Position numbers and translations under genes: made by a program
Part shown: positions 35,945 through 56,437 of the stretch, in pieces
How the letters are laid out: each line of letters starts with the position of its first letter
Numbering within the stretch: the first letter of the stretch is position 1
NCBI GenBank assembly: GCA_029907255.1
Contig: JARYMF010000015.1
Span: forward strand, 1 to 64,000
Reading direction: 5' to 3'
Length of the DNA stretch: 64,000 nt
Source: Armatimonadota bacterium
GTDB taxonomy: Bacteria > Armatimonadota > UBA5829 > DTJY01
The notes under the pieces: generated by a model
What the model was told of the DNA's origin: nothing
Databases searched by the model: none
The model's input: the letters and a program-made list of their open reading frames with translations, nothing else

Positions 35945-35981
35945 CTTTCAGTCCTCTACTTACTGAGGAATAGTCTATAAC
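35945..35981 (-). CRISPR. Solitary CRISPR repeat
   Basis: A single 37-base copy of the array repeat, in the same orientation as the main array about 7.7 kb away. It differs at two adjacent positions near the 5' end of the transcript form (GTTATAGAC in place of GTTGCAGAC). The 3' handle end ACTGAAAG and the TCCTC/GAGGA stem are intact. It abuts the cas2 relic directly. No second repeat is found within 100 bases on either side. It is either the last remnant of a second array or a solo-repeat RNA. Confidence 0.9.
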
Positions 35982-36016
35982 TTGCTCGGCATATCGTAAA
36001 TGACTAGGGTTTGCAT
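35982..36016 (-). pseudogene. cas2 5' relic (12 codons)
   Basis: The 35 bases from ATG 36016 match the first 35 bases of the intact cas2 gene (48291-48257) with one difference, encoding MQTLVIYDMPSK in place of MQTLVIYDVPSN. The match ends exactly where the solitary repeat begins, and upstream of the ATG there is no similarity. It overlaps the csx15 stop codon region in another frame. This is a remnant of a second cas2 copy that once followed the type III operon. Confidence 0.8.
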
Positions 36017-36414
36017 GTAGATTCACCAATATGCATGCTTCTAGAGCGAGCTGTGTTTCTAACTTCGTTCAAATTGAGAACCTCCGCTACTTCGAAAACC
36101 GTCGGAGTTGCGTTTGGAACGGGCCGCAAGCGCAAGATTGTCGGGAAATAGCCCATTCGGCCGTGCAGTTCGGCTGTCAGCACAACCGCGCTGTAGTTGA
36201 GCGACGGCGGATTGATTAGCAATTGCTCCGTTTGCCACTCTGTTGGCGTCAGCGGGATGCTGTCTATGATAGAAACTATCTGCGGATGGAGCGGCAGTGA
36301 AGTGTTTATATGACTTTCAATATCCATCACCTTATTAATCTTTCGCCCCGTCAGCTTTTCGATTTGGGCAAGATGTTCGCTTGTGAGCGGGTGAGAGAAA
36401 TTTAAAATAATCAT
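36004..36414 (-). CDS. csx15: Csx15-like CRISPR ancillary protein
   Basis: A 136-residue protein starting MIILNFSHPLTSEHLAQIE, the signature opening of Csx15 proteins found with type III systems. Other parts are LPLHPQIVSIIDSIPLTPTEW, LLINPPSLNYSAVVLTAEL and GYFPTILRLRPV. Csx15 is linked to cyclic-oligoadenylate signalling. I recall recent proposals that it binds or degrades the signal molecule, which I cannot verify here. Its start overlaps the end of the CARF nuclease gene by four bases (ATGA), so it is coupled to it as last gene of the type III operon. The last few residues run into the cas2 relic, so the natural C-terminus may be altered. Confidence 0.8.
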   Translation of the reverse strand: MIILNFSHPLTSEHLAQIEKLTGRKINKVMDIESHINTSLPLHPQIVSIIDSIPLTPTEWQTEQLLINPPSLNYSAVVLTAELHGRMGYFPTILRLRPVPNATPTVFEVAEVLNLNEVRNTARSRSMHIGESTCKP

Positions 36415-37334
36415 GCGTCACCCCTGTGGAAGGTACTAGTCACTTCGTTTATTAACAGCTGCTTGTCGTCTTCTGACAGTTCATTGGAGCCTTCCTGTGC
36501 CAAGCTTTTTAGCACCACCGTTTTAATGCGGAGGTTTTCCGCAAGCCTTTTGTTATTCTCTTCTTGTTCTTCGCTTAGGAAAAGAAATTTCTTTATATAA
36601 GCGCCTGATAAGCGCGTATCGGATAGGGTACTTAACTGGTCGATGGGATCCTTTCCCCTTGCTTTCCCACCAGTTTTTACCTCTGCAATCCCAACCTGGT
36701 TACCATATCTAAACATTAGATCGATTTCCACATTATGAGTCTTTGGCCTTATACTTGTCATCAACTCGCATACATTCTCTGCAAGAGCATTGACGATACT
36801 TATCTCAGCCGGGTTTTCTGGCTCTTTTGCTGTATAATCTCCAAAATGTGACTTAATGTACTCATCAAGAGTTATTTTTGAGGGAATCTCACGTGGGCTT
36901 TCTTGCACCGGCTGAAGTTTACCTTCTGGGAAACGACAGGTATGCAGTAGGCTTTTGCCACCCTCGCTTTGAAGATATACGCATTCAATGCCTAGCTTAC
37001 CCGCAAGAGACCAAGCGGCAATAGACATAGGTTTTGTTCCGCCGGTAATATTGAAAATTAGGTTTTCCTTGTTAATTTTATTATCTTTAATATAGGCTTC
37101 CAATTTTTGGAGAATATCCGGGATATTATAGGCATCTGGCATTTCAAGAAATTTTAGGCACGGACTATTTGCCCCCTTTGAATTTTCTTTTATTACTTTT
37201 TCCAGCCTTTCTGCAACCTCTTTTACAGCTTTATTTTCTGTAACTATAAGAATAACTTCACGAGGTTGAAGATATTTCACAACAATCAGATTTGGAGTCG
37301 GCTGTTCGCCAACAAGTTCAACTAATGTTTTCAT
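36411..37334 (-). CDS. CARF-domain nuclease, Card1/Can2-like
   Basis: A 307-residue two-domain effector. The N-terminal CARF domain (about 1-150) carries NITGGTKPMSIAAW at 95-108, the usual ligand-binding loop for cyclic oligoadenylate. The C-terminal PD-(D/E)xK nuclease domain (about 165-270) shows NVEIDLMF (Glu203, Asp205) and GIAEVKTG (Glu218, Lys220). This order matches Card1/Can2 (DUF1887) proteins, which cut RNA and/or nick DNA when the second messenger binds. Because the Cas10 here lacks an HD nuclease, this is probably the main killing or dormancy arm of the type III response. It starts two bases after cmr6. Confidence 0.88.
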   Translation of the reverse strand: MKTLVELVGEQPTPNLIVVKYLQPREVILIVTENKAVKEVAERLEKVIKENSKGANSPCLKFLEMPDAYNIPDILQKLEAYIKDNKINKENLIFNITGGTKPMSIAAWSLAGKLGIECVYLQSEGGKSLLHTCRFPEGKLQPVQESPREIPSKITLDEYIKSHFGDYTAKEPENPAEISIVNALAENVCELMTSIRPKTHNVEIDLMFRYGNQVGIAEVKTGGKARGKDPIDQLSTLSDTRLSGAYIKKFLFLSEEQEENNKRLAENLRIKTVVLKSLAQEGSNELSEDDKQLLINEVTSTFHRGDA

Positions 37335-37336
37335 TT

Positions 37337-38464
37337 TTATCCCACGTCCTCTGAGTTCTCATGTGCTTCAAGGTATTCTCGCACCTTGAGCACCCAGTCT
37401 TTACCAGACCACTTCTTATCTTTTAATATGCTAGCTTTTTCCATTTGGTCTTTCAAAGCTCTTGCCACCTTTAATTTCCCAGGACCATCTGGGAGTCGGT
37501 CCCACTTATCGAAATAGTTTTTTATTGTGCTCTTTATTTGCGGGAGCGAGATATTGAGGATTCTTTCTACGAGAGCGTTTTCATCAGATTCCGCTGGGGT
37601 TCTCTGTGCAGAAGCGGCAGCAGTACTCTTCGAAGCGTCCTGAGTAGGATGGGTTTCAATGAAATAGCCATAGCCAGCGCTGGTTTTCGCACCGGCGCCA
37701 AGCTCCATTAACCCGCATTTAAGCCACTCCACGGCTTTGTTTAGGAGCTTCTCTGTTTTTTCATCCAGCGTTCCTCGCCAACCGACGGCAAAGCGGAACT
37801 CCGTCCCAGGCGCGACTGTAAGAAAATATATCGGAACCGGATTCTGACAATCGGTTGGCGCCTTTTTTCCCTGGTAGTACTCAGGAAAATGCGGGTTCAT
37901 GATATCAATATCCAATTTAGGCTCGCGTGAAGGGATTGCATCAAAGAAGATTGCCCCACCACAAAGTGCGTCAGTTTCGTCCTCCCCGCCTTGCGGAGCA
38001 CAGCCGAATATGGTTCGGAAATCCTCATCATTTTCATTCTTGCCTTCAAACTGAGAAGCATATGCTCGGGCGATGCCCTTAACACTACTCCCAGGTAGAA
38101 TTGGGAAGCCATATCTGTGGAAAGTAAAGCCGATTTCCAAAGGACCTTTTCGCCCCAAGCCTGTCACAAAACGCCAGTGGGTTTTCATTTCGAACGAAAC
38201 AGCTCCAGCAGAACGCACTGAGGCTTCCCAACGCGCATTCCAAGCTTTTAGCAATTCATCATCAATCTTCTCGGCAGCCTCGCGAACCTTTTCAAGCTCC
38301 TCCTTTTTATTGCCGCGGGATGACTTTTCGTCTTTCGATTCCGTTCCTAAATACCGGATGAAACGGTCGAATATAAGCCCCGGGTTTTGATACTGTTTGT
38401 CCTTATGTTTTTTGTAAGCATCAACGCTCTGCTTTGGGATTGGGATACAGATATTATTGCCCAT
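37337..38464 (-). CDS. cmr6: Type III-B RAMP subunit Cmr6
   Basis: This 375-residue Cas7-superfamily subunit sits near the 3' end of the crRNA in the Cmr complex. The RAMP core has TGLGRKGPLEIGFTFHRYGF, then PILPGSSVKGIARAYA (near residue 128), the classic Cmr6 glycine-rich block. GGAIFFDAIP, NPHFPEYYQG and PIYFLTVAPGTEFRF follow, and the C-terminal RAMP loop GAGAKTSAGYGYF is near residue 260. The last 100 residues are helical and low in similarity. Its start overlaps the cmr5 stop by one base (TAATG). Confidence 0.95.
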   Translation of the reverse strand: MGNNICIPIPKQSVDAYKKHKDKQYQNPGLIFDRFIRYLGTESKDEKSSRGNKKEELEKVREAAEKIDDELLKAWNARWEASVRSAGAVSFEMKTHWRFVTGLGRKGPLEIGFTFHRYGFPILPGSSVKGIARAYASQFEGKNENDEDFRTIFGCAPQGGEDETDALCGGAIFFDAIPSREPKLDIDIMNPHFPEYYQGKKAPTDCQNPVPIYFLTVAPGTEFRFAVGWRGTLDEKTEKLLNKAVEWLKCGLMELGAGAKTSAGYGYFIETHPTQDASKSTAAASAQRTPAESDENALVERILNISLPQIKSTIKNYFDKWDRLPDGPGKLKVARALKDQMEKASILKDKKWSGKDWVLKVREYLEAHENSEDVG

Positions 38465-38835
38465 TATTCACCTCCCAATTCAGCTGTAGCAAAACGCTTA
38501 ACCCAATTTAGAAATGCAATTGCCTCGGCAGTTGCACGGCGGTAATCATTTGTGGTGGCTTCGTTCACAATCCAGTCAAGCAAATCCTTTCCGGGCTGGT
38601 TCATCTGGTTCATTACCCACTCGGAGACGTGTTCCCCAAGTTTCTTGTGATGACCACCCTTTTTCGCCCTCCAGAACGCGAGAGTTTGGCCAAGACCATT
38701 CGACTGGATATCAGCAGGAGCGCTTTTTGCCAATTGGGCATATTCCTCAGCAATATCACGATCTTTCGCAACTTCTTTTACTTTGCTCCAAGCCCCTTTT
38801 GCACGCTCCTGTTCCAAAGATCGCTGTCTGCTCAT
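38464..38835 (-). CDS. cmr5: Type III-B small subunit Cmr5
   Basis: A 123-residue all-helical protein (Cas11 group) forming the inner filament that contacts target RNA in the Cmr complex. Typical parts are SLEQERAKGAWSKVKEV at the N-terminus, EYAQLAKSAPADIQSNGLGQ, TLAFWRAK and AEAIAFLNWVKRFA at the C-terminus. The start overlaps cmr4 by four bases (ATGA) and the stop overlaps cmr6 by one, so it is embedded in a tightly coupled operon. Confidence 0.95.
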   Translation of the reverse strand: MSRQRSLEQERAKGAWSKVKEVAKDRDIAEEYAQLAKSAPADIQSNGLGQTLAFWRAKKGGHHKKLGEHVSEWVMNQMNQPGKDLLDWIVNEATTNDYRRATAEAIAFLNWVKRFATAELGGE

Positions 38836-39743
38836 TTCTGGTCACCTCCTGAAGGCTGATAGAACCTTAGCGCTACCACTCCCTGTCCGGTAGTCTCGTC
38901 GCCACCCAATCTGGTGCGTGTGATTTTTAGTTCAGCAAGCTTTTGGAGAACGTCTTTACCACTAAGTCCTATGCTTTCCCTACGAGATTTTGTTGCCATT
39001 AGAGGAGCGTAAAGCAGAGAATCTGTAGGGAGACTCTCCGAAGTCCAAAGGGCATTTTTCGCTACTGTTTTCGTATTATCATCGAGCTTTATATGCGTCT
39101 GCACTTCGGTGGCATACTTTACAAAATCACGAAAAGCATCCTCCGGCAAAATGCAGAGCTTCTTTGGCAAGCTTTCGCGCCAATACTTGTATTCGTTGCC
39201 TTCAGGTAGGGCGTTGCTTTCGAGCCATTTGCCGATTTCATTAACCGTTCCATTATTAACCGGTTCAAAACTGAACTCCTCAAGAACTATACGGTCACCA
39301 GCTTTGAGCTCATCACCCGCCACCAAAGCACTATCAGGGTTGGGTTCTTCTGGAAGCTCCAAATTCAATTTAACCCCTACCGCACTTGCATCACGCAAAA
39401 AGCGGGCTAAGGCATTAATACTGGTTGTCCATGCGAACACCCCAGCCAGCGAGCGAACAGGGAAAAGCAAAATGCGCGCATCGCCTACTGAAAGTGCGCC
39501 TGCATGATCTGAAGCGTTCCCGGTCTCCGGGCCGAATATAGCAAGATGTTCTTCGTTACTCAGTCCACTTTTATTCTTGCACTCATCGCGGAGGCGGCCT
39601 TTGATGCTGCTTGCCTGGATTATTGGATAATCCGTTGTACGTTCTCTTTGTATAGGTAAATCTACAGCGCCTAGACTTCTACCACTGCCAGCGTGCAGTG
39701 GGGTTTCAACATAGATAAATAACAAGCTTGCTGCTTCAAACAT
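38832..39743 (-). CDS. cmr4: Type III-B backbone RAMP Cmr4
   Basis: The 303-residue Cas7-type backbone subunit that polymerises along the crRNA and cuts target RNA every six bases. Family parts are LHAGSGRSLGAVDLPIQRE (near residue 16), YPIIQASSIKGRLRDEC, LSVGDARILLFPVRSLAGVF and the C-terminal LGGDETTGQGVVALRFY. The aspartate used for RNA cleavage in characterised Cmr4 lies in the first loop; the Asp in AVDLPIQRE is the candidate. It overlaps cmr3 by eight bases. Confidence 0.95.
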   Translation of the reverse strand: MFEAASLLFIYVETPLHAGSGRSLGAVDLPIQRERTTDYPIIQASSIKGRLRDECKNKSGLSNEEHLAIFGPETGNASDHAGALSVGDARILLFPVRSLAGVFAWTTSINALARFLRDASAVGVKLNLELPEEPNPDSALVAGDELKAGDRIVLEEFSFEPVNNGTVNEIGKWLESNALPEGNEYKYWRESLPKKLCILPEDAFRDFVKYATEVQTHIKLDDNTKTVAKNALWTSESLPTDSLLYAPLMATKSRRESIGLSGKDVLQKLAELKITRTRLGGDETTGQGVVALRFYQPSGGDQK

Positions 39744-40788
39744 TGTTCCACTCCTTTACAATAATTTGGCCGAAACCTATTTCGGCGCCAAAGTCTGTGA
39801 TTGCTCCTTGAATTAAGTCGGTTTTCAACCTTGCTTCTCCTTTAGACTCAAAGTAGTAAACACTCCCGGCAGGAACATATCGTCGGGCAGGCTTGTGGGC
39901 ATTATTTGCCCAGTCATATCCACCGACGCTCTCATAGCGATTTACCGCTGCCGCTTTAAGCTCAACATCTCCCTCGAAAAATTGACTCCAGTCGTTGGGC
40001 TTCCATCCAGCATTAAAGTAAGTTGGAGATGCGAAGTAGATTTTGAATAGTCCTGGCAAAGGATTTGGAGGACTGCACCAGCATACATCATCCACTTTAG
40101 TAAAGAATGCACCTCTGCCCTCTCCGCCAATGCGCATGATGCCATTATCTGGCCAGTCTCTGTAGCCCGAGACCTCGACCAAAAGGCCTACCCCTTCTTG
40201 GGGACGGATAAACTCTACCTCATATAGCTTTCCTTGCTCAGTTGTACGAGTGTAATCGTTTATGTCAATGCCAATTCGCGACTCCCTAACAAATAAATCA
40301 TGGTCTGCAACGGGTTTAACCTTTTTTCCTTCCAAGCATTGCTTCAAATCGTACTCAGGCAGCCAATTTCCAGTCTCTACCTTTTTAGGCTTCCCGGTTG
40401 GTAGAAGAAGGTTAGGTGTTACGTTGCTTGCAATTATGCCATCAGGAATTTTGCAAGGGCTAAGGGACTGCACACCATCTTCTGCGGGGAAAATGTCGGC
40501 TGGAACCGGTAGGTACCGCACAATCTTTCCATTATCCTCTTTCTTTGCAAGAAATGGGCCTCGCATTCTTAGATCCTTATAACAATCCACCGTGCCGACT
40601 ATATCAGAAATAGCTTTAGCATCTTTTAAATTGACATTTTTTATCACTAAATAGTGTGAGCGTATTGCGCCCTGCATAACCGTCGGGTATGGAGGAAAGA
40701 AACTCACTGCGCGGTGGTCGCTGCCAGCATCAAATGACCTCCCGTCGCGAAACAGCCAAACATCAACAGGTTCTAGGAAAAGATGCAT
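39736..40788 (-). CDS. cmr3: Type III-B subunit Cmr3
   Basis: A 350-residue Cas5-group RAMP that holds the crRNA 5' handle next to Cas10. It begins MHLFLEPVDVWLFRDGRSF, the usual Cmr3 opening, followed by FFPPYPTVMQGAIRSHYL. FVRESRIGIDINDYTRTTEQ lies mid-protein, and the glycine-rich RIGGEGRGAFF (near 225) and ITDFGAEIGFGQIIV (C-terminal) complete the fold. An in-frame start 15 codons upstream exists. ATG 40788 is chosen because its A is the last base of the cas10 stop codon (TAATG). Confidence 0.95.
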   Translation of the reverse strand: MHLFLEPVDVWLFRDGRSFDAGSDHRAVSFFPPYPTVMQGAIRSHYLVIKNVNLKDAKAISDIVGTVDCYKDLRMRGPFLAKKEDNGKIVRYLPVPADIFPAEDGVQSLSPCKIPDGIIASNVTPNLLLPTGKPKKVETGNWLPEYDLKQCLEGKKVKPVADHDLFVRESRIGIDINDYTRTTEQGKLYEVEFIRPQEGVGLLVEVSGYRDWPDNGIMRIGGEGRGAFFTKVDDVCWCSPPNPLPGLFKIYFASPTYFNAGWKPNDWSQFFEGDVELKAAAVNRYESVGGYDWANNAHKPARRYVPAGSVYYFESKGEARLKTDLIQGAITDFGAEIGFGQIIVKEWNNV

Positions 40789-42530
40789 TATTCTACACCT
40801 CCCTGCGCGATAAATTGCGCGAAGACCAACCATCGCCCAAGTTCGGCAAAGCCTTGTGGCTTATTGTTTTCCTTAGGAGTGATTTCGTCTAGAGCATCTA
40901 TCCATTCATCCATTTTGCTTAATAGGCTATCTTCCTCTTCCTGTGAAAGCATATCGGACTTGTGGCGTTTTATAAGACGCTTGATGCACGCTAAACATGC
41001 ATCTTTATTTTCTAATCCTGTAACAATCCGAGCCTCATCGAGCACATCGTAAGCAAACTTAGAAGCAAGTTTTTTTTCCTTAAAGCAAGATACGATTAAA
41101 TTGAACCTCTCTTCCAAACCATCCCATTTGCTGCCTATGCGGACTTCTTCACCGCTGCGCTTCAAAATATGGAGACAAACAGCATTTTTCCCGCGGAGTC
41201 TTTTTGCTTCTGCTTCAGCCCTTCGTGCTGCGCTCAAAGAAGCGTCTAGTGGATAAAGGTGGTGCACAATTGCAATTCCTGCAGATGCCGTTACCTCTCC
41301 CACGGTTTCGCTAAATTTCTGGGCAAGTTTATTTGCAAGGTGAATAGCTTTTGATAATGGGCACAACAGCAATACATCATCCCCGCCGTTGTATACAAGC
41401 CACTTCTTATTCTCAATCAAATCGGGCACAGAGGCAGCGAATTCTGCAAGTCGCCCGCTAAACTTCTTGTGCTCTTCCTCAGGATTTTCGGTCTCAAGAA
41501 GTTTATCAATACGCTCACCCATTTTGTCACCATCGAGCATTATAATGGCATAGTATGGCGACGGATAACAGCCTACCTTTCCATAAATCTCCGAAAGCTT
41601 TTTCTGAGCTTCCGAAAGTTCCTTTTTATCGAGCTCACTTACTCCATAACTATCCCTAAGACGACCTTCAGCTAGGGTCTCCATATATAGCAGGTCACCA
41701 TCATATGGCCAATCTTCATCGCTATCCAGGACGGTATATAGATGTTCCTTAAGCAATTTTTCTACTGCCGCCCGATAATCAGCAAGATTTTCACGATGTT
41801 GCCGTATAAGCTCCAAGAAATCAGCTGCGGCAACAGTTGAAGTGGAAGGGAAAGACGTTTCAGCAATTTTGCAAAAGCGTTTGACGGCGCCAATTGCATC
41901 AAGCCGCTCTCGTCCATCAGGCCTAAGTTTGGCTGGAACAAACTTACTACTAATCTTCTTCCAATATGACAAGGCATTGTCAGATTTTATACGCAATGCA
42001 GACCGACGCCCACTCAACGTATCTTTCAATCCGTCCTCCCCGGATCCGTCCTTCCCGGCAGCGTTAAAGTGCCGAGTACGCTTTACAGCATCCAATACTC
42101 TTGAGGCTTCGTTAAAGGCATCTTTATACGAGCGATTCTCCAGCGAAGCCGCTGCCCAGTAGACTTCCCATAAATTGTTGATTTGTCGCTCCCATATTTT
42201 ATTCCATTCATCATCAGGCTTTGGTTCTATTGACTCTAACTTTTTCTTTGCCTCGTCCGCAATCTTCATCCATTCATTCAAAAGGGCTTTATGAGCCTTC
42301 TCTGCTATTCCCTTTGCTTTTTCCCAAGGCACAACTGCCACGAGCTTATTTGGAACGTCAGCATCGAGTTTTTGCGGATAGATTAGCCTATCTTCCCCAA
42401 TTGCTCTTCCAGCTGCCCTTGCCAACTCCACAAGTATTTTGCTACCCGTGAATAAATCTGCCAAGCGCCTTGCTTCCGCTATGAACTGCTGGACCGGACT
42501 GAACGTAAATATGATTATTGCATCGCTCAT
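40788..42530 (-). CDS. cas10: Cas10/Cmr2 large subunit without HD domain
   Basis: A 580-residue Cas10 with two palm polymerase-like domains. Palm 1 starts at the very N-terminus (FTFSPVQQFIAEARRLADLF). Palm 2 has YYAIIMLDGDKMGERI (about 326-341) and the cyclase motif YNGGDDVLLL, whose GGDD is at about 382-385. The C-terminal helical domain 4 is present. The N-terminal HD nuclease that precedes palm 1 in many Cas10 proteins is missing. The expected activity is synthesis of cyclic oligoadenylate on target RNA binding, without single-stranded DNA cleavage. ATG 42530 overlaps the cmr1 stop as ATGA and is preferred to ATG 42539. Confidence 0.96.
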   Translation of the reverse strand: MSDAIIIFTFSPVQQFIAEARRLADLFTGSKILVELARAAGRAIGEDRLIYPQKLDADVPNKLVAVVPWEKAKGIAEKAHKALLNEWMKIADEAKKKLESIEPKPDDEWNKIWERQINNLWEVYWAAASLENRSYKDAFNEASRVLDAVKRTRHFNAAGKDGSGEDGLKDTLSGRRSALRIKSDNALSYWKKISSKFVPAKLRPDGRERLDAIGAVKRFCKIAETSFPSTSTVAAADFLELIRQHRENLADYRAAVEKLLKEHLYTVLDSDEDWPYDGDLLYMETLAEGRLRDSYGVSELDKKELSEAQKKLSEIYGKVGCYPSPYYAIIMLDGDKMGERIDKLLETENPEEEHKKFSGRLAEFAASVPDLIENKKWLVYNGGDDVLLLCPLSKAIHLANKLAQKFSETVGEVTASAGIAIVHHLYPLDASLSAARRAEAEAKRLRGKNAVCLHILKRSGEEVRIGSKWDGLEERFNLIVSCFKEKKLASKFAYDVLDEARIVTGLENKDACLACIKRLIKRHKSDMLSQEEEDSLLSKMDEWIDALDEITPKENNKPQGFAELGRWLVFAQFIAQGGVE

Positions 42531-43468
42531 GAGTTCCACCCCTTTACCTTCACAACCTTGCCTTGAAATTTTTCATTCAAGAAATTGCTAATTTTGTCGT
42601 AATTAGCCCCTTTAAACGAAGAAGCAAGGACGCAGAAAAGCAAGCCGTATTCATCTTTATTTGTTTTTATTGGCCTAACCCACAGGGGGGAAGCTTGGCG
42701 AGAAGCTTGGCGAGATCTAATACCACCGAATGCAGGATCCTTTGGCACATTTTTCATAAACTGTTTTACAGCATCCATTGCAGTTTTCGCTTTTAAATCG
42801 CATAGCTGAATCAGTGACATCTTATTTGCACATGGATATTTGGTTGGTCCATTTGGCGGATCTGGAAGAATGTTCTTTCCTGCACTCTCGCAAAGGCATT
42901 TAACAGATTTGACCGCGAACTCTACCGTTTCTTTTACGTATTTTTCCCAACCGCAAAATGATTCAGGAAAAGTTGGGACCAACTCTCTGTCGCTCGATTC
43001 ACAGATGCATAGCGTTCCATATCCTCTCCTAGAACGCAGTCCTATACCTCCAAAAGTAAGAGCCAACCTAAGTGCAGAACACGCCGCGTTCCATATACGG
43101 TCATTGTCTTTGCCGGTGAACATAGACAAATCGAAATTTTCTCCAGCTTTAAATGCCTTTCTTGAACCCACTGCTTTCCTTTCTATATGCGGAAGTATCG
43201 TAGTATCCTGAAAGTTAAGTTTATTAGAGGTGCAATAAGTTTTAAGGCTTATTGGTGATGCGCACTCCGTACTTCCAAAGACTGCACTTTCAATTTTTTG
43301 CAAACCATCAATATCCCCATCGCCAATTACCCCGCCCAGGGCTGCTCGTAGCCAGTAGCGAAATGCACCGCGGAAACTTGGAGGCCGCAGTTCTGGACTC
43401 TGTGGCTCGGCTCCCGCTAGCAGCAATGGAGTTACTGCTTGTAATGTAACCCTCAACTCTTTTTTCAT
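42527..43468 (-). CDS. cmr1: Type III-B RAMP subunit Cmr1
   Basis: A 313-residue RAMP that caps the 3' end of the crRNA in Cmr complexes. The N-terminus has the family core LRVTLQAVTPLLLAGAEPQS, then LRPPSFRGAFRYWLRAALGG near residue 28. The second glycine-rich loop is FGGIGLRSRRGYGTL near residue 140. PAFGGIRSRQASRQASP near 255 contains a short in-frame repeat SRQA. It is the first gene of the effector operon; GGAGG lies just before ATG 43468. The only sequence between it and the array is the cas1 relic and a short AT-rich stretch, where its promoter must lie. Confidence 0.95.
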   Translation of the reverse strand: MKKELRVTLQAVTPLLLAGAEPQSPELRPPSFRGAFRYWLRAALGGVIGDGDIDGLQKIESAVFGSTECASPISLKTYCTSNKLNFQDTTILPHIERKAVGSRKAFKAGENFDLSMFTGKDNDRIWNAACSALRLALTFGGIGLRSRRGYGTLCICESSDRELVPTFPESFCGWEKYVKETVEFAVKSVKCLCESAGKNILPDPPNGPTKYPCANKMSLIQLCDLKAKTAMDAVKQFMKNVPKDPAFGGIRSRQASRQASPLWVRPIKTNKDEYGLLFCVLASSFKGANYDKISNFLNEKFQGKVVKVKGWNS

Positions 43469-43545
43469 ATTTCCTCCTTGCTTGCGACAGGCTTACGAAA
43501 AGAAGCGTAGCATATTTAGAATAAAAAGGGTTTTCTTTATGATTT

Positions 43546-43656
43546 GACACCAAGCAATTGGTTTCCTTTTTCCATTTCTAGATGAAGGGCTTGTAGTCGC
43601 GTTCGCCTCGAAGGAAGGAAACGACGCGTCGGCACTGCAACTGGTTACGCTTTTCG
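43546..43656 (-). pseudogene. cas1 3' relic
   Basis: This stretch aligns without gaps over most of its length to 48668-48779, the last 29 codons of intact cas1 plus 23 bases beyond its stop. It decodes to NQLQCRRVVSFLRGERDY then KPFI, where a TAG replaces the Ser codon three codons before the normal end. Beyond both ends similarity stops. It lies between the distal end of the array and cmr1, on the same strand as intact cas1. It marks a second cas1 copy that preceded the type III operon. Confidence 0.85.
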
Positions 43657-43682
43657 ATAAAGAATGGTTATGGAAATACTAC

Positions 43683-46600
43683 TTTTAAATCCTCTACTTA
43701 CTGAGGAATAGTCTGCAACTTGGGCGCTGCCAAAGACTAGACCCTCACATCCTTACTTCGTAACTTTCAGTCCTCTACTTACTGAGGAATAGTCTGCAAC
43801 CAACGAAATTCGCGGTAGTCTTCTGAACGAGCTTACAGACTTTCAGTCCTCTACTTACTGAGGAATAGTCTGCAACTAATATGAGCATACATATTGCCGT
43901 CGGACGACCACTCTCGCCTTTCAGTCCTCTACTTACTGAGGAATAGTCTGCAACCTTGTGAGGAGTTTGTTATAAATGTAGGCACGATAGAGACCTTTCA
44001 GTCCTCTACTTACTGAGGAATAGTCTGCAACAAATTTGTCTTCTCCGACGACGAGCTTGAGCTGCTGGGCTTTCAGTCCTCTACTTACTGAGGAATAGTC
44101 TGCAACATCTAAGAGAAGATTACAAACTATTGGCGAAAGAAATTCTTTCAGTCCTCTACTTACTGAGGAATAGTCTGCAACAACCTGGGGCGGCATTCGC
44201 CGCCCCAATATTAAAAAAACTTTCAGTCCTCTACTTACTGAGGAATAGTCTGCAACCAACGAAATTCGCGGTAGTCTTCTGAACGAGCTTACAGACTTTC
44301 AGTCCTCTACTTACTGAGGAATAGTCTGCAACTAATATGAGCATACATATTGCCGTCGGACGACCACTCTCGCCTTTCAGTCCTCTACTTACTGAGGAAT
44401 AGTCTGCAACCTTGTGAGGAGTTTGTTATAAATGTAGGCACGATAGAGACCTTTCAGTCCTCTACTTACTGAGGAATAGTCTGCAACAAAAAGAATGAAG
44501 AAGGTTGATCAAAATCGTTGGGCTTTCAGTCCTCTACTTACTGAGGAATAGTCTGCAACAAAGATGGCTATAGCTAACTAACTTGCGCTTGGCACATTCT
44601 TTCAGTCCTCTACTTACTGAGGAATAGTCTGCAACTCCGTCAACCAAGCGATATAATGTATAGGTTATACCACCTTTCAGTCCTCTACTTACTGAGGAAT
44701 AGTCTGCAACATCGTTGTTTGGGCTGCGCAAATGCAGGTCAAGGTCTTTCAGTCCTCTACTTACTGAGGAATAGTCTGCAACATGATGAACTTATTATAA
44801 ATGTTGGCACGGTAGAAACCTTTCAGTCCTCTACTTACTGAGGAATAGTCTGCAACTTGGGAAGAATTTATTGTAAGTGTCGGCACGATAGAAACCTTTC
44901 AGTCCTCTACTTACTGAGGAATAGTCTGCAACTTGGGCGCTGCCAAAGACTAGACCCTCACATCCTTACTTCGTAACTTTCAGTCCTCTACTTACTGAGG
45001 AATAGTCTGCAACAATCTCCGTAATGAGCGCCCAGACGAACTAATCGCCCTTTCAGTCCTCTACTTACTGAGGAATAGTCTGCAACTCGGCTTAAGCCCG
45101 CGGTTTGTCCGCAAGAATACCGACTTTCAGTCCTCTACTTACTGAGGAATAGTCTGCAACACGGAAGGCTCTTGCTGCATGTTCATGACTGGAGTAAGCT
45201 TTCAGTCCTCTACTTACTGAGGAATAGTCTGCAACTATATATCACACTTGGCCGCTCAACGTTCATCCGGTTACTTTCAGTCCTCTACTTACTGAGGAAT
45301 AGTCTGCAACACTTTTTTCACCCCCCTCTCATGTTTTTTTGTGTGTCTTTCAGTCCTCTACTTACTGAGGAATAGTCTGCAACCTGTCGAGGTAGTGATT
45401 GGTGGCAAAACATATCAAGCCTTTCAGTCCTCTACTTACTGAGGAATAGTCTGCAACACGGCATAATGCAGTCCACGGGCTACTTCTCGCTTTCCCTTTC
45501 AGTCCTCTACTTACTCAGGAATAGTCTGCAACAATGCGCGCGGGAATGGCTGACTGAATTCGAATCTTCGTTCTTTCAGTCCTCTACTTACTGAGGAATA
45601 GTCTGCAACTTATCAAGTTAAGATTTAGTATTTAGAATGTTTGGTCGAATCTTTCAGTCCTCTACTTACTGAGGAATAGTCTGCAACTATCGCTTAGCCG
45701 ACGGAAGGCTGCTACTCCATGTGAACTTTCAGTCCTCTACTTACTGAGGAATAGTCTGCAACATGAAAACTATACGGCGGACAACAAGGGCAATTGGACT
45801 TTCAGTCCTCTACTTACTGAGGAATAGTCTGCAACTGCTTTGGGCAACCTGGATTTGCTTTAGGCTCCTCAACTTTCAGTCCTCTACTTACTGAGGAATA
45901 GTCTGCAACTTAAGAATCTGCTCGCTTTGCAGGCGAGTGATTGGTTCTTTCAGTCCTCTACTTACTGAGGAATAGTCTGCAACTAAAAGCAAGCGGCCAT
46001 CCTCAAGCTTGTACAAAGTGTACTTTCAGTCCTCTACTTACTGAGGAATAGTCTGCAACGTAATGATATTCGACCCGGCCGGACGATTAAAATAGCTTTC
46101 AGTCCTCTACTTACTGAGGAATAGTCTGCAACAGTAGCTGCTGGGCGTGTTGCAAAATTCGTTTTCGAGTACTTTCAGTCCTCTACTTACTGAGGAATAG
46201 TCTGCAACAACCGTTTAAGACGCTCAAGCGTGCCCAAAACATCAGTCTTTCAGTCCTCTACTTACTGAGGAATAGTCTGCAACCCATTCATCAGGCTTGA
46301 CATCGTCAAAAAAGCATCGCTTTCAGTCCTCTACTTACTGAGGAATAGTCTGCAACTCAATAAGGCGGTATAACGTGTAAGTTATACCGCGCGTGTCTTT
46401 CAGTCCTCTACTTACTGAGGAATAGTCTGCAACTTGGAGCATGTTAAGGCTCATCCTGATGAACCCTGTGCTTTCAGTCCTCTACTTACTGAGGAATAGT
46501 CTGCAACTGAATGCCACGAAGATTAGCTGTAAGCTCCTAATTGCGCTTTCAGTCCTCTACTTACTGAGGAATAGTCTGCAACTAATTCCCATATCCGAAA

Positions 46601-47038
46601 AAGTTTCTAATTCCCATATCCGCTTTCAGTCCTCTACTTACTGAGGAATAGTCTGCAACAATTTTTTTTCAAGTCGTCCTCAGTGACGACTTTCAGGTCT
46701 TTCAGTCCTCTACTTACTGAGGAATAGTCTGCAACAGCAACAAAGAACAGCCTGCAGGAAAACAGCATTAAGGACTTTCAGTCCTCTACTTACTGAGGAA
46801 TAGTCTGCAACCGGCGGCAAGGAGGCAGTTGAGCAGGGAGTGCTGTTGCTTTCAGTCCTCTACTTACTGAGGAATAGTCTGCAACTCGAGATTTGAGGTG
46901 GCGATGCTTCTAGCTAGCATGCTTTCTTTCAGTCCTCTACTTACTGAGGAATAGTCTGCAACCTGCTGAGGATCTGGCTGGTGCATCCTTGGAGCCACCG
47001 CCTTTCAGTCCTCTACTTACTGAGGAATAGTCTGCAAC
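43683..47038 (-). CRISPR. CRISPR array, 45 repeats and 44 spacers
   Basis: Forty-five copies of a 37-base repeat; in transcript form it begins GTTGCAGACT and ends GGACTGAAAG. Spacers are 35-44 bases, mostly 36-40. A TCCTC/GAGGA stem with an eight-base loop precedes the handle ACTGAAAG, a good Cas6 substrate. Three facts give right-to-left transcription: the leftmost repeat (43683-43719) is degenerate at its handle end, the leader promoter lies at 47054-47082, and cas4-cas2-cas1 are on that side. One repeat (45496) has a single G-to-C change. Numbering spacers from the left, spacer 1 equals 17 and spacers 2-4 equal 8-10, leaving 40 distinct spacers. No spacer matched other genes in the window on reading. 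Confidence 0.99.
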
Positions 47039-47387: not shown

Positions 47388-47999
47388 TTAAAACCTATCG
47401 CCACAGAAATTTAAAAATTCGCAGTCAATGCACTTGCCTTTTTGTGCTGGCGGCTGCGGCATTGTTTCCTTAGCTATCATCTCCCGAATTTCGCGCACTA
47501 CCCGGCAAACTTCTGCCTTCAGCTCTTCATTAATTGCTATTGAGTATACCTTGTTGTCGGGAATTTGATATATAAACCCCTTTTGCACCCGGCAGGAGTA
47601 TTCGCTTTCAATCAGCAAGGCATAACCAGCAAGCTGATACTTATGATTGGCGAATACTCCGCGGGTTGTATCTTTGAAATCTACAGGATAGTAATCCGAG
47701 CCTGCTATTAGAAGGAGGTCTAATACTCCTGTTAAGCCCAGCTTTTGAGATTTGAGCGCCACATGGAACAATCGCTTCCCTTCGATTATGCCGTATTCGC
47801 GCAGTTTTCGGCGACGCTCGAGCGCAGAAATAACCTCGTGTTTATCCAAGCCGACCTTCATTTTTGTTGTTACCTTTCTGCGCACCGGCATTACATAGGT
47901 GAAGTAGACTACCCTTGGGCAATACAGCCACTGCTTTATATCGCTTACCCGCACCAAGAACTGGCTTTGTGTATTTTCTTGCGCAACCAATTCATTCAT
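47388..47999 (-). CDS. cas4: Cas4 adaptation exonuclease
   Basis: A protein of about 203 residues that trims prespacers and helps select PAM and orientation together with Cas1-Cas2. It is a RecB-type nuclease with an iron-sulfur cluster. One Cys lies in QWLYCPRVVYF near the N-terminus and three in the C-terminal CIDCEFLNFC. The nuclease core shows LTGVLDLLLIAG and YYPVDFKDTTRG (the D-x-K pair) and then HKYQLAGYALLIE. A longer frame from 48044 exists. ATG 47999 overlaps the cas2 stop by eight bases and gives the normal start of the family. Confidence 0.93.
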   Translation of the reverse strand: MNELVAQENTQSQFLVRVSDIKQWLYCPRVVYFTYVMPVRRKVTTKMKVGLDKHEVISALERRRKLREYGIIEGKRLFHVALKSQKLGLTGVLDLLLIAGSDYYPVDFKDTTRGVFANHKYQLAGYALLIESEYSCRVQKGFIYQIPDNKVYSIAINEELKAEVCRVVREIREMIAKETMPQPPAQKGKCIDCEFLNFCGDRF

Positions 48000-48291
48000 T
48001 GGATTTTGCCCTGCGAGTTTTTGATTTTGGCAGGCTGTCGTCATCTTTTTTATTTATAAGCTGTTTGCGGTGCTTCAGGCATTTCTCGCAGACAGGGAAG
48101 ATTTGCACATTTCCCTCTTTATTGCCCATATGGCGCTTTATTTTCAGCAGGAGCTCTTCGCATCTATTGGCGGTCATGTCGCCGAGAAACGCAGACAGCT
48201 GGATTCGCTCGAGTGCGTAGTCGAGGCACACGTCAGCGATTTTGTTTCGCAGTTTATTGCTCGGCACATCGTAAATGACTAGGGTTTGCAT
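47992..48291 (-). CDS. cas2: Cas2 adaptation protein
   Basis: A 99-residue ferredoxin-fold protein that dimerises at the centre of the Cas1-Cas2 integrase. It begins MQTLVIYDVPSNKLRNKIAD, with the conserved Asp after the first strand, then LERIQLSAFLGDMTANRCEE and VQIFPVCEKCLK. The C-terminal tail beyond residue 80 is basic and low in complexity (KSKTRRAKSNE). It is translationally coupled to cas4. Its first 12 codons recur as a relic at 35982-36016. Confidence 0.95.
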   Translation of the reverse strand: MQTLVIYDVPSNKLRNKIADVCLDYALERIQLSAFLGDMTANRCEELLLKIKRHMGNKEGNVQIFPVCEKCLKHRKQLINKKDDDSLPKSKTRRAKSNE

Positions 48292-48312
48292 TATGCGCAG
48301 ACCTCGTTAAAT

Positions 48313-48519
48313 CTACTTTACTGTTATTTTCACACTGCCACAGCCCTTGGACTTGTACCCGCCAAGGATATCAATGGATTCCAACAGCTCCTTCAAGAAG
48401 GATATTAGGCATTTGGCGGACTTAATTTCTTCATCCGTCCATATTTCTTTATCAAACAATGCATCAAGACCGGCATCGCCTTGTGATTCCGTAGGCATTT
48501 CGGCTAAGACACCGCCCAT
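48313..48519 (-). pseudogene. C-terminal relic of a type III RAMP (Csm3/Csx7-like) gene
   Basis: A 68-codon open stretch ending KELLESIDILGGYKSKGCGS then VKITVK. The glycine-rich loop GGYKSKGCGSVKI is the C-terminal RNA-binding loop of Csm3/Csx7-type Cas7 proteins (usual form GGxxSRGxGxV). Everything N-terminal is missing: an in-frame TAA lies three codons upstream of the first ATG. It differs from the Cmr6 and Cmr4 loops of this window, so it stems from another RAMP. It sits between cas1 and cas2, exactly where the second cas1/cas2 relics place a type III operon. Confidence 0.7.
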
Positions 48520-48690
48520 CCCTTTTTATCACATTCATTTAGGCTGTTCTTGTGGCCATGGAACCTTATTACTAGCCAATGTCTCTCACATCTGAGCAGT
48601 TTTCCTTCATCATTTAGTTCTGGAATCGTTCTAGATGTCTCCTATTTATAGCTTGTTTGTTATTTTCGACACCAAGCAATGGGTTTCCTT

Positions 48691-49719
48691 TTACCATTTC
48701 GAGATGAAGGGCTTGTAGTCGCGTTCACCCCGAAGGTAGGAAGCGACGCGTCGGCACTGCAACTGAATTACGCTTTTCAGCTCCCACTTTTTGCCTTCGT
48801 AGCTAACCTTGTCCTCCAAGCGCGCTAGAATGCGCTTTGCGATTTCCCTTCTCGAGGCATCGGAAAGTCGGGCATCTTCATCATCGTCGGCGGCTTCCAT
48901 TTCAATTTTGAAGCCTTTTCTGATTGCGGCAATAAGCGGCTGGTCTACAATTGGCTGGCGAAACTCCTCCACCATGTCCAAGACTAGGCTCGGCTTGCCT
49001 GGCCTGTCAGCGTGAATGAATCCGGCAAACGGCTCTAAGCCCGCCAATGTAATTGCCGACCATACCTGGCTATAGATTATTCCATAGCCGTAGTTTAGCA
49101 TAGCATTCACGGCGTCGGCGGCTCCTCGATGTTTACGTTTGGTGAAAACCGCCCTATCGCCCAGGATTAGCTTTACTCCTTCCCAATACGCGGCGCCCGC
49201 CCTGCCTTCTAGGTTTAGAATGGTCTCGCGTGCGCCGTCAGCATTTTCCGCATAGACATTCGACAGCTCGTCTCTGAGTTTAATGATCTGGTTGGCACAT
49301 TTAGAAATAGCTTTAAACCCGGCAGAATCAGTCTGCTTGCGATATTTGGCAAAATACCGAAGCAAGTTCGCTTGGTTTACCAGTTTTCCATAAGCAAATG
49401 CCTTTGCCAATTCGACACTGCGCGAATCGTTTAGCGCGGCAATTTGCTCTCGGCGCGTAATGATAGTAGCGGTAAGGTCGGGAGAGACGACCTTTGCGTA
49501 TGGTTTGCCGGAATAGGTAAGTAGAGTGATAGGTATGCCGCGCTCACAGCATTCATAGATGAGGTCGCACGATATGGAAACGCCCGGGCAGGCGACGAGG
49601 ACCTGCTCGAGGTTGATAAGCGGATGCTCCTCGATGGTCTCGCCGCCTTTCCGTATGACCAGCCTTTCGGAATGCTTCCCAAGAAAGACCCCAAATTCGA
49701 AGATGGTGAGTATGGACAT
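48691..49719 (-). CDS. cas1: Cas1 integrase
   Basis: A 342-residue Cas1. The N-terminal beta domain (1-85) is followed by the helical catalytic domain. The metal-binding triad is Glu171 (ETILNLEGRAGAAYWEG), His236 (GFIHADRPGKPSLVLD) and Asp248 (LDMVEEFR). TKRKHRGAADAVNAMLNYGY matches the conserved block before the second ligand. It lies 39 bases after cas5. Its last 29 codons plus 23 bases recur as a relic at 43546-43656. It is not fused to cas4. Confidence 0.97.
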   Translation of the reverse strand: MSILTIFEFGVFLGKHSERLVIRKGGETIEEHPLINLEQVLVACPGVSISCDLIYECCERGIPITLLTYSGKPYAKVVSPDLTATIITRREQIAALNDSRSVELAKAFAYGKLVNQANLLRYFAKYRKQTDSAGFKAISKCANQIIKLRDELSNVYAENADGARETILNLEGRAGAAYWEGVKLILGDRAVFTKRKHRGAADAVNAMLNYGYGIIYSQVWSAITLAGLEPFAGFIHADRPGKPSLVLDMVEEFRQPIVDQPLIAAIRKGFKIEMEAADDDEDARLSDASRREIAKRILARLEDKVSYEGKKWELKSVIQLQCRRVASYLRGERDYKPFISKW

Positions 49720-49758: not shown

Positions 49759-50469
49759 TTATTGAGCGAATTGGGCAGAATACTGGACAAATCCCGGGCC
49801 ACAATTCGAGATAGTTACAGGAACGAGCGTATCTACGCGAATTCTATGTTCTCCAAGCTTTGGCTTGAATTTTTGTTCATATGAATTAAGATACTCAAAT
49901 TTGGCTTTAGGGCCAAAGTCATCAAGCGGAATAATACGCGATCGTTCGGCTAGCTTCTCTCCAAGGCTTTCAGTTACAGGCAAGGTGAACTCTGAACCGA
50001 GGCTCTCGGCCCACTCAGACTGAACAAACTGCAACATTGAGCCACGTTTCCCTATATAATGAACAAAGGGAGCTAGGCATAATATATCGTTAGCTAGTTC
50101 GCTATTGTCCTGTAGGTTAAGAGCCCATATCCAATGCCCCTGGACATATACTACTTCCCGGTACGCTATAGAAGAAATATATGGGTTCTCACTTTCCCGG
50201 TCTTTGCCTTCTTGCCGTATCTTTTGAATCGTCTGAGTAACAACTGATTCAACAGCAGGCTTTATGCGCACCCAAACTTTTGCCAAATCTTCTACCAACT
50301 GCCTGCATTTGCTTTCTTCCCAACCAGCTCTGAAAGCAGCATCAACAAAAGCCATTTTGATAGCATATGGTGTTGGAATGACAAGTGAACGACCAACAGT
50401 GCTGGTGGCGATGCTTGATTTAAGCGAAAACAATGTTGTTGGCTGATAGTGAAGCAACAACCAAGCCAT
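49759..50469 (-). CDS. cas5: Type I Cas5
   Basis: This 236-residue RAMP would bind the crRNA 5' handle in the type I surveillance complex. It opens with a strand and glycine/serine-rich loop (LLLHYQPTTLFSLKSSIATS), then LVIPTPYAIKMAFVDAAFRA. AYREVVYVQGHWIWAL and LAPFVHYIGKRGSMLQFV follow. These resemble Cas5 of I-A-like (DevS/Csa5-group) systems. A TTG start at 50478 is possible. ATG 50469 is better spaced from AAGGGG and begins just after the cas7 stop codon. Confidence 0.8.
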   Translation of the reverse strand: MAWLLLHYQPTTLFSLKSSIATSTVGRSLVIPTPYAIKMAFVDAAFRAGWEESKCRQLVEDLAKVWVRIKPAVESVVTQTIQKIRQEGKDRESENPYISSIAYREVVYVQGHWIWALNLQDNSELANDILCLAPFVHYIGKRGSMLQFVQSEWAESLGSEFTLPVTESLGEKLAERSRIIPLDDFGPKAKFEYLNSYEQKFKPKLGEHRIRVDTLVPVTISNCGPGFVQYSAQFAQ

Positions 50470-50470
50470 C

Positions 50471-51394
50471 TCACTCAATCCCCTTATTTATTTCATTCAG
50501 AATTTCTAGGGCTCCTGATAGTGAATCGAATTTACGAATCTCTATAGAAACCCCTGATAACTCGCTTAATTTTTCGGCGATTTTTTCAATCTCTTCTCGG
50601 TAGCCGTTATTCAACGGACTGATTGTAGGAGCAGGTACGGATGTAGTAGATATAGCAATAATTCCCTCTGCTCCAATCACATGTGGAAACTGTGTATTTC
50701 TCTGTGCACCTTTTGGAGCGCTTAGGGTACATCCAAGCGCTTGAATTGCTGCACGCATGCGTGCCTTTTTATCAGCCTCAGGGATGACGTCTTTACGAGA
50801 AATATCGTTCCGTCCAATCCTAGATAGTTCCAGATGCGCTACCAATGCATAAATGCCTGAGGAAGCAGGACGATGGAAAATGGCTTGCGTGCCCGCAACC
50901 GACTCAGTGCCGGTGCCTGACCCACGCGAAGGGTCATACTTAACATGGAAATACTGCTCTGTGCTGGTGTATTCGGGTATTCCAACTACCCAACCGAATT
51001 CAACAATGCTTTTCCTCGCAACAGCTTTCTCTGCGTAGAGCGTTCCAGCTATATCTGTTACTGCGCAGTTAGAAATCATAAGGTCTTGAATCTCTTTTGC
51101 ATCCTTTGCCCCAGCTTGTTTTCTGAAATTTTCATCCAATAGTATCCTATCAGGATGAAGAGCAGCAGCATTTGGGCATACATTCTGCTTAGCAGCGATA
51201 AGAAGTGGCGTCAGATGCTCAACCATGATGTGTTTGAACATATCGCCGCTGATAGCATTAACCACATGCTTTCTGCCAGCGTCGTCCAAAATGTGAACCA
51301 TTCGAGTCTGCTGTTGATTACCCTCAGTTCCTTCGTTGTTAAGATTATGCAGGTTTAGTTTGACTCTTGCGCAAAGTGAAAGTGAACTAATCAT
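50471..51394 (-). CDS. cas7: Type I Cas7, DevR/Csa2 family
   Basis: The 307-residue backbone subunit of the type I complex. LSLCARVKLNLHNLNNEGTE and VVNAISGDMFKHIMVEHLTP (near residue 45) are hallmarks of the DevR/Csa2 group. A central GSGTGTESVAGTQAIFHRPA and ALVAHLELSRIGRND complete the RAMP core. Its start overlaps cas8 by four bases (ATGA). DevR-type Cas7 proteins occur in I-A and I-B-like systems; the subtype is left open. Confidence 0.88.
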   Translation of the reverse strand: MISSLSLCARVKLNLHNLNNEGTEGNQQQTRMVHILDDAGRKHVVNAISGDMFKHIMVEHLTPLLIAAKQNVCPNAAALHPDRILLDENFRKQAGAKDAKEIQDLMISNCAVTDIAGTLYAEKAVARKSIVEFGWVVGIPEYTSTEQYFHVKYDPSRGSGTGTESVAGTQAIFHRPASSGIYALVAHLELSRIGRNDISRKDVIPEADKKARMRAAIQALGCTLSAPKGAQRNTQFPHVIGAEGIIAISTTSVPAPTISPLNNGYREEIEKIAEKLSELSGVSIEIRKFDSLSGALEILNEINKGIE

Positions 51395-53169
51395 TCTGTT
51401 TCTACCTCCTCAATTTCCGATATTTCTGATTCCAACAACTCTTCCTCCTCTTGCCTGATTTCTTCAGCCTCGGCCGCAGGCTCTCGACAAGTTCCATAGG
51501 CGCATAGAAGAGCACCAATTAATGCTGGGTTGTCTGTCTCATCAATTAGTGCGGCAACACCTTCTAAGTCCTCTGTCGTTATATTTGAAGGTGCAGCTTT
51601 TAGGGATTCCTTATTCTCACGACGGCGGGCATTCTCGCTGTTGTATTGGGTGACAAAAATTGCCAATGCCTCAATCAATTCTTCCTTCACAAAGCGTTTT
51701 CGGTTCAACTCTGCAACAAGCCCGTAGCGTATCTCACGCCAAGGTTTTTTCCCCATTGCCTTCTGCGCTTGTGCACTTACGGTTGATTTTCGAATTGCCT
51801 TAGCGATAGATTGGAAGTGGGGGTTTTTAAGAATTGCAGAAATGTTTGGTGCCATAGATTCTACCATCCTTTCTAGTGTTGATGTAGTAAACCGCGGCAT
51901 TCGCCGACGCCGTGGGTCGTTTGTAGCGCTCATCCAGTAAGCACCGTAATTACTGATGAAGCATATTAGCTCCGTGAAAGCTTCAGTGTCCCTAATCTGC
52001 AGAAACTTCCTGTATTGTTGAAGTAAGGAGATTTCTTCGCTGTTGGACTCATCTAGATTGCGTAGAATATTTTGATGCTCCTCGATAATACTGCGCCAGC
52101 TATCAGCATCTTCCTTGGACTTGATTGGAAACCAACCAGGTACTGCAACAAAAGACAGCTCGGTCACGTTCTTTCCAAATTGACTAGTTTTTAAGTAGTG
52201 AGTGATGTGCAAACCCGAAATTAGATCTGCCGGCGAATAATTGCTTATGAAGAGCTTTGCAAAGTTGGGCTGTTCTGAACTTGCATACTCAGAATGCTCG
52301 ATAAGAAGAGCAGCAACACGCAAAGACGCAAGTACATCTAGCTTCAGCTTTTTACTCTTAAAAAATTTACTGCTTCGAAGCTTCTGCACTATTAGCTCGA
52401 AGGCAGTAAGGGAGATATCTTTGGGAATCGGAGTTAATAATCTTAAATTCTGCTTCTCATCTTGATAAGGTACAGCTGCGGAGAAATAGCCTCCATATCG
52501 AAAATATTGGAATATCTCGTTGTCGCCTGTGTCGGCAATCTTAGGATTATGCCGATTCGTGCCTGAAGGCTTTATTCCATAAGATCCTTTTGCTATCAGC
52601 GGATTCATTAATTGATTGCCGCTTGCGCCTAGGTTTACATTCGGGATTGCTCCCGCCGGGTTTTGCATTCCTTTTAACGCTAGCTGAAGTTCTTGTGGCC
52701 AATTTGATTGCTTGCTATGCGTGTATTCCAGCGCTTTGTTAGCTCCCGTGTCAGCCTGCATGGTACTAAAGAATCTATACAAGCGATATTCAGGATCAGG
52801 AGCGTATTCCTCAAGCTTCTGCTGTATATCAGGATCATTACGTAAATTGGGGTTTCTTTTTCTTTCCGCTTCCAACTTATTTCTCTGTTCTTCCTTTCTC
52901 TGTTCAAGCTCTTTTGCCTCTACTAGGTTGTAAAAAGGGATTTCAGCTGGCGCATTAACCTTCCCATTGACCAAATAGCGATAGATACTCTTTCTAGACA
53001 GTTTACTGTAATTTTGATTTTGAGAATCCATCGCTTCTACAATAAAGTAATCACCTTCCATTCTTATGTGAGCTGGGTGTTCTTCTGAATCAAGCAACTT
53101 TGCTAGGCCAACTGCTGCGAACACATCGCCCTGTGTCTCTGTTTTTCTCTGAACATAATATTTACTCAT
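51391..53169 (-). CDS. Type I large subunit, Cas8-like
   Basis: A 592-residue protein in the position of the large subunit that recognises the PAM and recruits Cas3. It has no catalytic motif. The N-terminal part (1-120) ends in a charged coiled coil (KELEQRKEEQRNKLEAERKR). The middle holds NLGASGNQLMNPLIAKGSYG. A helical C-terminal part (about 440-560: KAIRKSTVSAQAQKAMGKKP, YGLVAELNRKRFVKEELIEA) resembles a small-subunit domain. No separate Cas11 gene exists in the operon, so this part may supply that role by fusion or internal initiation. The last 35 residues are very acidic. AGGAGG precedes ATG 53169. Confidence 0.75.
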   Translation of the reverse strand: MSKYYVQRKTETQGDVFAAVGLAKLLDSEEHPAHIRMEGDYFIVEAMDSQNQNYSKLSRKSIYRYLVNGKVNAPAEIPFYNLVEAKELEQRKEEQRNKLEAERKRNPNLRNDPDIQQKLEEYAPDPEYRLYRFFSTMQADTGANKALEYTHSKQSNWPQELQLALKGMQNPAGAIPNVNLGASGNQLMNPLIAKGSYGIKPSGTNRHNPKIADTGDNEIFQYFRYGGYFSAAVPYQDEKQNLRLLTPIPKDISLTAFELIVQKLRSSKFFKSKKLKLDVLASLRVAALLIEHSEYASSEQPNFAKLFISNYSPADLISGLHITHYLKTSQFGKNVTELSFVAVPGWFPIKSKEDADSWRSIIEEHQNILRNLDESNSEEISLLQQYRKFLQIRDTEAFTELICFISNYGAYWMSATNDPRRRRMPRFTTSTLERMVESMAPNISAILKNPHFQSIAKAIRKSTVSAQAQKAMGKKPWREIRYGLVAELNRKRFVKEELIEALAIFVTQYNSENARRRENKESLKAAPSNITTEDLEGVAALIDETDNPALIGALLCAYGTCREPAAEAEEIRQEEEELLESEISEIEEVETE

Positions 53170-56363: not shown

Positions 56364-56437
56364 GGCCGGTGAAGACTGCGATTCCTTGATGGACAGTTGC
56401 TGGATGACGGTACTATTAATTTTAGAGGTAAAATAGA

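Follow-up and report, generated by a model that had tools for sequence, protein, structure and literature searches.

Five spacers of one CRISPR array in an Armatimonadota bacterium encode overlapping pieces of a single small gene, and a family of homologous genes was located on tailed-phage contigs. The array lies in the window, by which we mean the whole 64,000-nucleotide stretch analysed (contig JARYMF010000015.1 of assembly GCA_029907255.1). The five spacers probably represent independent Cas1–Cas2–Cas4 acquisitions from homologous copies of this gene, most likely orthologues in several tailed phages.

The array is flanked by a type III-B operon on one side and by cas4–cas2–cas1 on the other (Table 1). 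Duplications within the array cause four spacers to occur twice, which leaves the 40 distinct spacers counted in an earlier, sequence-only reading of this DNA. A segment of 273 nt (43762–44034) recurs with 100% identity at 44218–44490 and doubles s2–s4, and one of 120 nt (43681–43800) recurs with 98% identity at 44894–45013 and doubles s1. All repeats share the same strand, with the minus-strand consensus GTTGCAGACTATTCCTCAGTAAGTAGAGGACTGAAAG; 43 of the 45 copies are perfect, one has a single mismatch and the first has three. Elsewhere in the host genome (3.23 Mb, 33 contigs), the repeat was found as one solitary copy at 35945. Because the minus-strand repeat reads ...ACTGAAAG, the presumed crRNA 5′ handle, and the repeat at 43683 is degenerate, crRNAs were taken as minus-strand, with the leader probably at the high-coordinate end and the newest spacers near 47000. 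Spacer s39 (46583–46622) contains an internal direct repeat, with TAATTCCCATATCCG present two times. A possible overlap between s5 and s33, each of which encodes KFVF, was considered too short.

Table 1. Features of the window discussed in the text, with spacer translations or gene content where given.
Feature	Positions	Strand	Translation or content
Type III-B (Cmr) operon	36004–43468	-	cmr1, cas10/cmr2, cmr3, cmr4, cmr5, cmr6, CARF-PDDEXK/Csx1-like protein, csx15
CRISPR array	43683–47038	-	45 repeats of 37 nt; 44 spacers of 35–44 nt, 40 distinct
Spacer s4	43955–43994	+	CEEFVINVGTIE; identical copy s10 at 44411–44450
Spacer s13	44636–44673	-	GITYTLYRLVDG
Spacer s15	44783–44819	+	DELIINVGTVE
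Spacer s16	44857–44895	+	WEEFIVSVGTIE
Spacer s20	45161–45198	+	GRLLLHVHDWSK
Spacer s27	45688–45725	+	YRLADGRLLLHV
Spacer s31	45984–46022	-	YTLYKLEDGRLLL; most diverged allele
Spacer s36	46357–46396	-	TRGITYTLYRLI
Adaptation genes, whole block	47388–49719	-	
cas4	47388–48044	-	
cas2	47992–48291	-	
cas1	48691–49719	-	
Type I-A-like effector genes, whole block	49759–55507	-	
cas5a	49759–50478	-	
cas7	50471–51394	-	
cas8a	51391–53169	-	
cas3	53162–55507	-	
cas6	57224–58180	-	

Spacers s13, s20, s27, s31 and s36 merge into one reading frame, (T)RGITYTLY[RK]L[VAEI]DGRLLLHVHDWSK, and the coordinates, strands and translations given in the sequence-only reading were confirmed. Along the target in the sense direction, the order is s36, s13 and s31 (all minus), followed by s27 and s20 (both plus), and the tile spans 77 nt; counted from the presumed leader end, the five occupy positions 9, 14, 18, 25 and 32. 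As s13, s36, s31 and s27 differ from one another within their overlaps, at least four alleles are represented. The overlapping peptides are 71–100% identical, their differences being confined to one variable position and one R/K change. Most nucleotide differences had been read as silent, and the codon counts behind this were reproduced: all five changes over seven codons are synonymous between s20 and s27, as are six of seven over ten codons between s13 and s36, and replacements (R/K and the variable V/A/E/I position) occur in other overlapping pairs. In a random-substitution test (20,000 trials), amino-acid changes fell below the random level for six of the seven overlapping pairs (P 0 to 0.0034), in agreement with that reading, and the closest pair, s13–s27 (3 differences in 18 nt), was not significant (P 0.19). 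When all spacer pairs were compared in six frames, pairs within this group reached a score of 50, whereas 20 shuffled arrays never exceeded 34.

Searches with spacer DNA stayed at noise level in annotated phages, where the best match was 93% over 29 nt (E 0.3), as well as in plasmids and in 291 genomes of the host's phylum, and exact or near protospacers for the five spacers were found neither there nor, by motif, in IMG/VR. Strict degenerate DNA patterns had zero matches in IMG/VR, tblastn with the merged peptide had none in annotated phages and plasmids, and the nine matches of a loose motif in GTDB genomes were all unrelated. The merged motif had been proposed as a handle for finding the attacking elements, with a search of viral sequence as the check. 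A looser IMG/VR pattern, DGR-hhh-H-h-x-DW (DGR...H..DW), returned four contigs, three of which encode relatives with similarity extending past the pattern residues, namely L050 (TRGVTETLYRAADGRLVVHVKDWSK), L052 (TRGTVETLYRAEDGRLIVHVRDWSH) and L051 (RRGLIYRAYRKSDGRIIIHVYDWSN). The closest copy, that of L050, is identical to the spacer peptide at 19 of 25 residues. A second IMG/VR pattern added L059 and a further copy in L051. The motif did work as a handle on the gene family, which the protein-level patterns located on four IMG/VR contigs of tailed phages. None of the remaining 35 distinct spacers had a match in the phages found, which are therefore not the attackers.

Because the first relatives were picked with spacer-derived residues, similarity at those residues is circular, and three checks addressed this circularity. 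A pattern-independent profile was built from eight paralogues that adjoin the first copies in L051 and L059 and are matched by no pattern; against it, the merged peptide scored 14.9 bits, compared with a maximum of 4.9 in 2000 residue shuffles, and four of the five single spacers came within the top five, with the fifth at rank six. A profile of 13 phage proteins was likewise matched by the spacer peptides: exactly the five spacers, in their stated frames, ranked top among 199 spacer peptides, and the merged peptide reached 27.1 bits. When all spacers were compared with the fetched phage DNA in six frames and without gaps, the five ranked first (43–54), all within open reading frames of the family, against maxima of 45 for shuffled spacers and 42 for the remaining spacers, the two lowest of the five being distinguished by their common location and not by score alone. 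The proposed origin of the five spacers in homologous copies of one gene was borne out by all three.

Family proteins measure approximately 90–137 residues, or 201 in L052, which has a C-terminal extension, and are 13–57% identical to the L050 copy. The strong conservation that had been ascribed to the target therefore does not hold for the whole protein; the sampled segment (L050 residues 49–73) ranks sixth in conservation among 95 stretches of 25 residues and is thus close to the best-conserved one. In a structure model (pLDDT 89.8), this segment lies on two strands, 46–59 and 64–72, that form a hairpin; the protein is confidently predicted to be small and to consist mostly of beta strands, with the sampled segment as its central beta hairpin. 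No Pfam or PHROG profile matched at E <0.001 and nothing fell under E 0.03; phrog_30011 (46 positions, annotated as of unknown function) gave E 0.037 with the 25-residue peptide only. PDB sequences contained no relative, and Foldseek returned nothing at E <0.05 from PDB and BFVD. Given these Foldseek negatives despite a confident model, no biochemical function is claimed. By these comparisons, the family appears to be new and undescribed.

The carrier contigs (13.9–28.7 kb, possibly fragments of larger genomes) encode a terminase, a portal, a major head (capsid) protein, a head protease and two integrases, which places the gene family on mobile elements, as had been anticipated, and identifies the carriers as tailed phages. 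Two of them, G292 and L059, hold approximately six diverged family members each, in one cluster. Near the family genes of L059 lie five TTGACA-17-extended −10 sites, and seven such promoter-like sites were found in all where 1.7 were expected; this suggests that the genes are expressed as separate short units and are perhaps early genes. At L059 5157–9167 and L051 9287–13164, small paralogous phage genes are clustered on both strands; separated by recurring promoter-like sites of the extended −10 type and by hairpins resembling terminators, they look like one-gene cassettes.

With two phages carrying about six diverged copies each, the spacer variants could be paralogues of one phage or orthologues of several. 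Of the earlier claim of separate homologues, the homologous copies hold, whereas separate phages are not required. An origin of the alleles as paralogues within one phage, or a small phage group in which the gene was copied several times, is unlikely but deserves serious weighing; one infecting element would then present many similar targets, and each crRNA may match several sites. The gene clusters of G292 and L059 are consistent with it, as are several L059 copies that adjoin their own TTGACA-17-extended −10 promoter-like sites and two L059 paralogues that are 68% identical over the segment. This last value is, however, the highest among within-phage paralogues, which are mostly below 50%, against the 71–100% of the spacer peptides, and the closest carriers, G291 and L052, have a single copy each over the full length of their records, although these may be fragments. 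Two phage contigs, from IMG/VR sets 3300031508 and 3300031513, carry orthologues whose segments differ at 19 of 72 nt but at only 4 of 24 residues, and because this is the same divergence pattern as between the spacers, orthologues are favoured. That the acquisitions occurred at different times we infer from array position only.

After cas4, cas2 and cas1, in order of coordinates, come I-A-like cas5, cas7, cas8a and cas3, with cas6 farther along. The type I-A gene set was recognized through matches to Cas8a (E 2.7e-52), Cas5a (7.8e-48), Cas7 (2e-57), Cas3 (1.1e-77; best model Cas3g) and Cas6 (1.8e-91); a split cas3 and csa5, as in classical I-A, were not seen. Type III-B was recognized through cas10/cmr2 together with cmr1, cmr3, cmr4, cmr5 and cmr6. 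At 35945–36016, the solitary repeat (two mismatches) is succeeded within a few bases by a copy of the cas2-start sequence (35994–36016 = 48269–48291); the pair may be what is left of a rearrangement or of a second CRISPR-cas locus. A 101-nt direct repeat with 92% identity (43543–43643 and 48665–48765) brackets the array and the cas4–cas2 block. At the same chromosomal site in a sister species of the genus (L020, 10900–14500), repeats are spaced at 781 and 483 nt with phage-like DNA in the gaps, and the Cas3-like helicase pair is a different one; this may be either a decayed locus or a misassembly fusing array and phage at common protospacers. The phage-like DNA was dropped as a lead to the attackers, its helicase fragment having no IMG/VR relative. 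Short tandem repeats with units of the HRMVE[GS]N type, read in a single minus-strand frame, occur at 56065–56389 and in L020 at approximately 14946–15335, a position between the cas3 and cas6 genes that is conserved in both species.

According to the favoured orthologue scenario, related tailed phages would reach the lineage at different times, and the adaptation genes would take up pieces of successive allelic copies by means of a Cas1–Cas2–Cas4 module probably common to the type I-A-like and type III-B effectors. Synonymous drift would make each allele unlike the older spacers, and it would then be recorded anew; with allele differences that range from 3 in 18 nt to 16 in 30 nt, the fit of an older spacer to a newer allele would often be poor. 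PAM-side triplets could be predicted from homologous flanks or codons for three of the five spacers, namely CCA (s20), TCN (s27) and ACN (s31). All three have C at −2, which points to a C at this PAM position; the PAMs listed for type I-A are CCN and TCN (PMC8482600). Since the crRNAs of s13, s31 and s36 are in mRNA sense and cannot pair with mRNA, the use common to all five spacers would be DNA interference by I-A. Only s20 and s27, which would give crRNAs antisense to the mRNA, could also direct RNA targeting by Cmr.

A second group of spacers, absent from the sequence-only reading, comprises s4 (= s10), s15 and s16 and encodes [ED]E[FL][IV][IV]xVGT[IV]E. Its pairs score 43–47 in the six-frame pairwise test (maximum of 34 in shuffled arrays), and its three variants share one end base exactly, which would be the PAM-proximal end if the orientation is right. 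These spacers represent repeated sampling of another conserved segment. One pattern found no relative of their target in IMG/VR. The group was suspected to derive from the N-terminus of the five-spacer gene (L050 starts MEEQTVWVGT), which the family profile did not support.

Neither drift alone nor conservation alone explains a density of five spacers in 77 nt. Under uniform sampling, the probability is approximately 0.0005 for a 10-kb source, 0.009 for 5 kb and 0.06 for 3 kb, and for 40 kb the density was reached in 0 of 4000 simulations. It is thus unlikely unless the source spans a few kilobases, and calls for some additional factor, be it a local hot spot, a multi-copy effect, priming or retention. 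In primed adaptation of type I systems, acquisition from a diverged relative can be promoted by an older spacer that matches it in part; priming would not require an overlap as tight as the one observed here. A small element of a few kilobases, for which repeated overlap would be expected without a hot spot, is an improbable source: the values for 3 and 5 kb and the presence of a second cluster of three spacers argue for it, but every relative lies on one of the 13.9–28.7-kb tailed-phage contigs, even if these may be fragments, and most other spacers have no detectable mutual overlap. We likewise doubt, while considering it conceivable, that the phage gene is multi-copy and individually promoted and that the array converged on the most conserved hairpin, where one crRNA would cut several sites in one phage and also several related phages; the spacers would then owe their place to retention by targeting breadth and not to chance of acquisition.

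A chromosomal or self gene of this group of bacteria is a very improbable target of the spacers. Hypothetical proteins on Agrobacterium and Rhizobium plasmids have a weakly similar motif (E ~0.5), but the merged peptide matched only the array in the host genome and nothing in the 291 phylum genomes, the family profile found no homologue in either, and the single L050 protein gave just three marginal matches (E 0.002–0.008). Chance similarity among short peptides, for which overlaps of only 4–10 codons each might speak, is scarcely credible given scores far above those of shuffled arrays and an independent phage family that picks out the same five spacers and frames.

Heidelberg et al. (2009, PMC2612747) described the hot-spring mat of Octopus Spring, where spacers match a viral lysozyme/lysin (DUF847) gene; silent or conservative changes separate the variants of that gene, a variation interpreted as CRISPR evasion with the protein kept. 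The present array has the same pattern of several spacers in one gene with mostly silent differences between variants: as in that mat, more than one spacer falls in a phage gene whose copies differ mostly silently or conservatively. The Octopus Spring protospacers, however, were recovered from a virome of that spring, and virus reads revealed the variation. Here, the variation is known from several alleles within a single array and not from the viruses themselves, and the gene appears to encode a small, beta-rich, undescribed protein. Sharing of arrays between I-A and type III effectors has also been reported (PMC8482600), and here one array and one Cas4-containing adaptation module accompany I-A-like and Cmr effectors; unlike in that case, the five spacers show no coding-strand preference, pairing with mRNA being possible for just two of their crRNAs. 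As the earlier mat study describes the same kind of event, observed here from the host's side and in another gene, and as shared I-A/III arrays are known, the sampling pattern itself is not new; the gene family is.

These results raise the question of whether such clusters are produced at the acquisition step, through priming, multi-copy genes or DNA ends, or by selective retention. They also show that 38-nt spacers without a DNA match anywhere searched can lead, through a protein-level motif search, to an apparently undescribed phage gene family, a route that is repeatable wherever spacers overlap in frame. For this bacterium, they mean that host defence has sampled the same viral gene repeatedly and that the array, in recording at least four of its alleles, amounts to a small alignment, kept by the host, of sequences from an unseen group of viruses.
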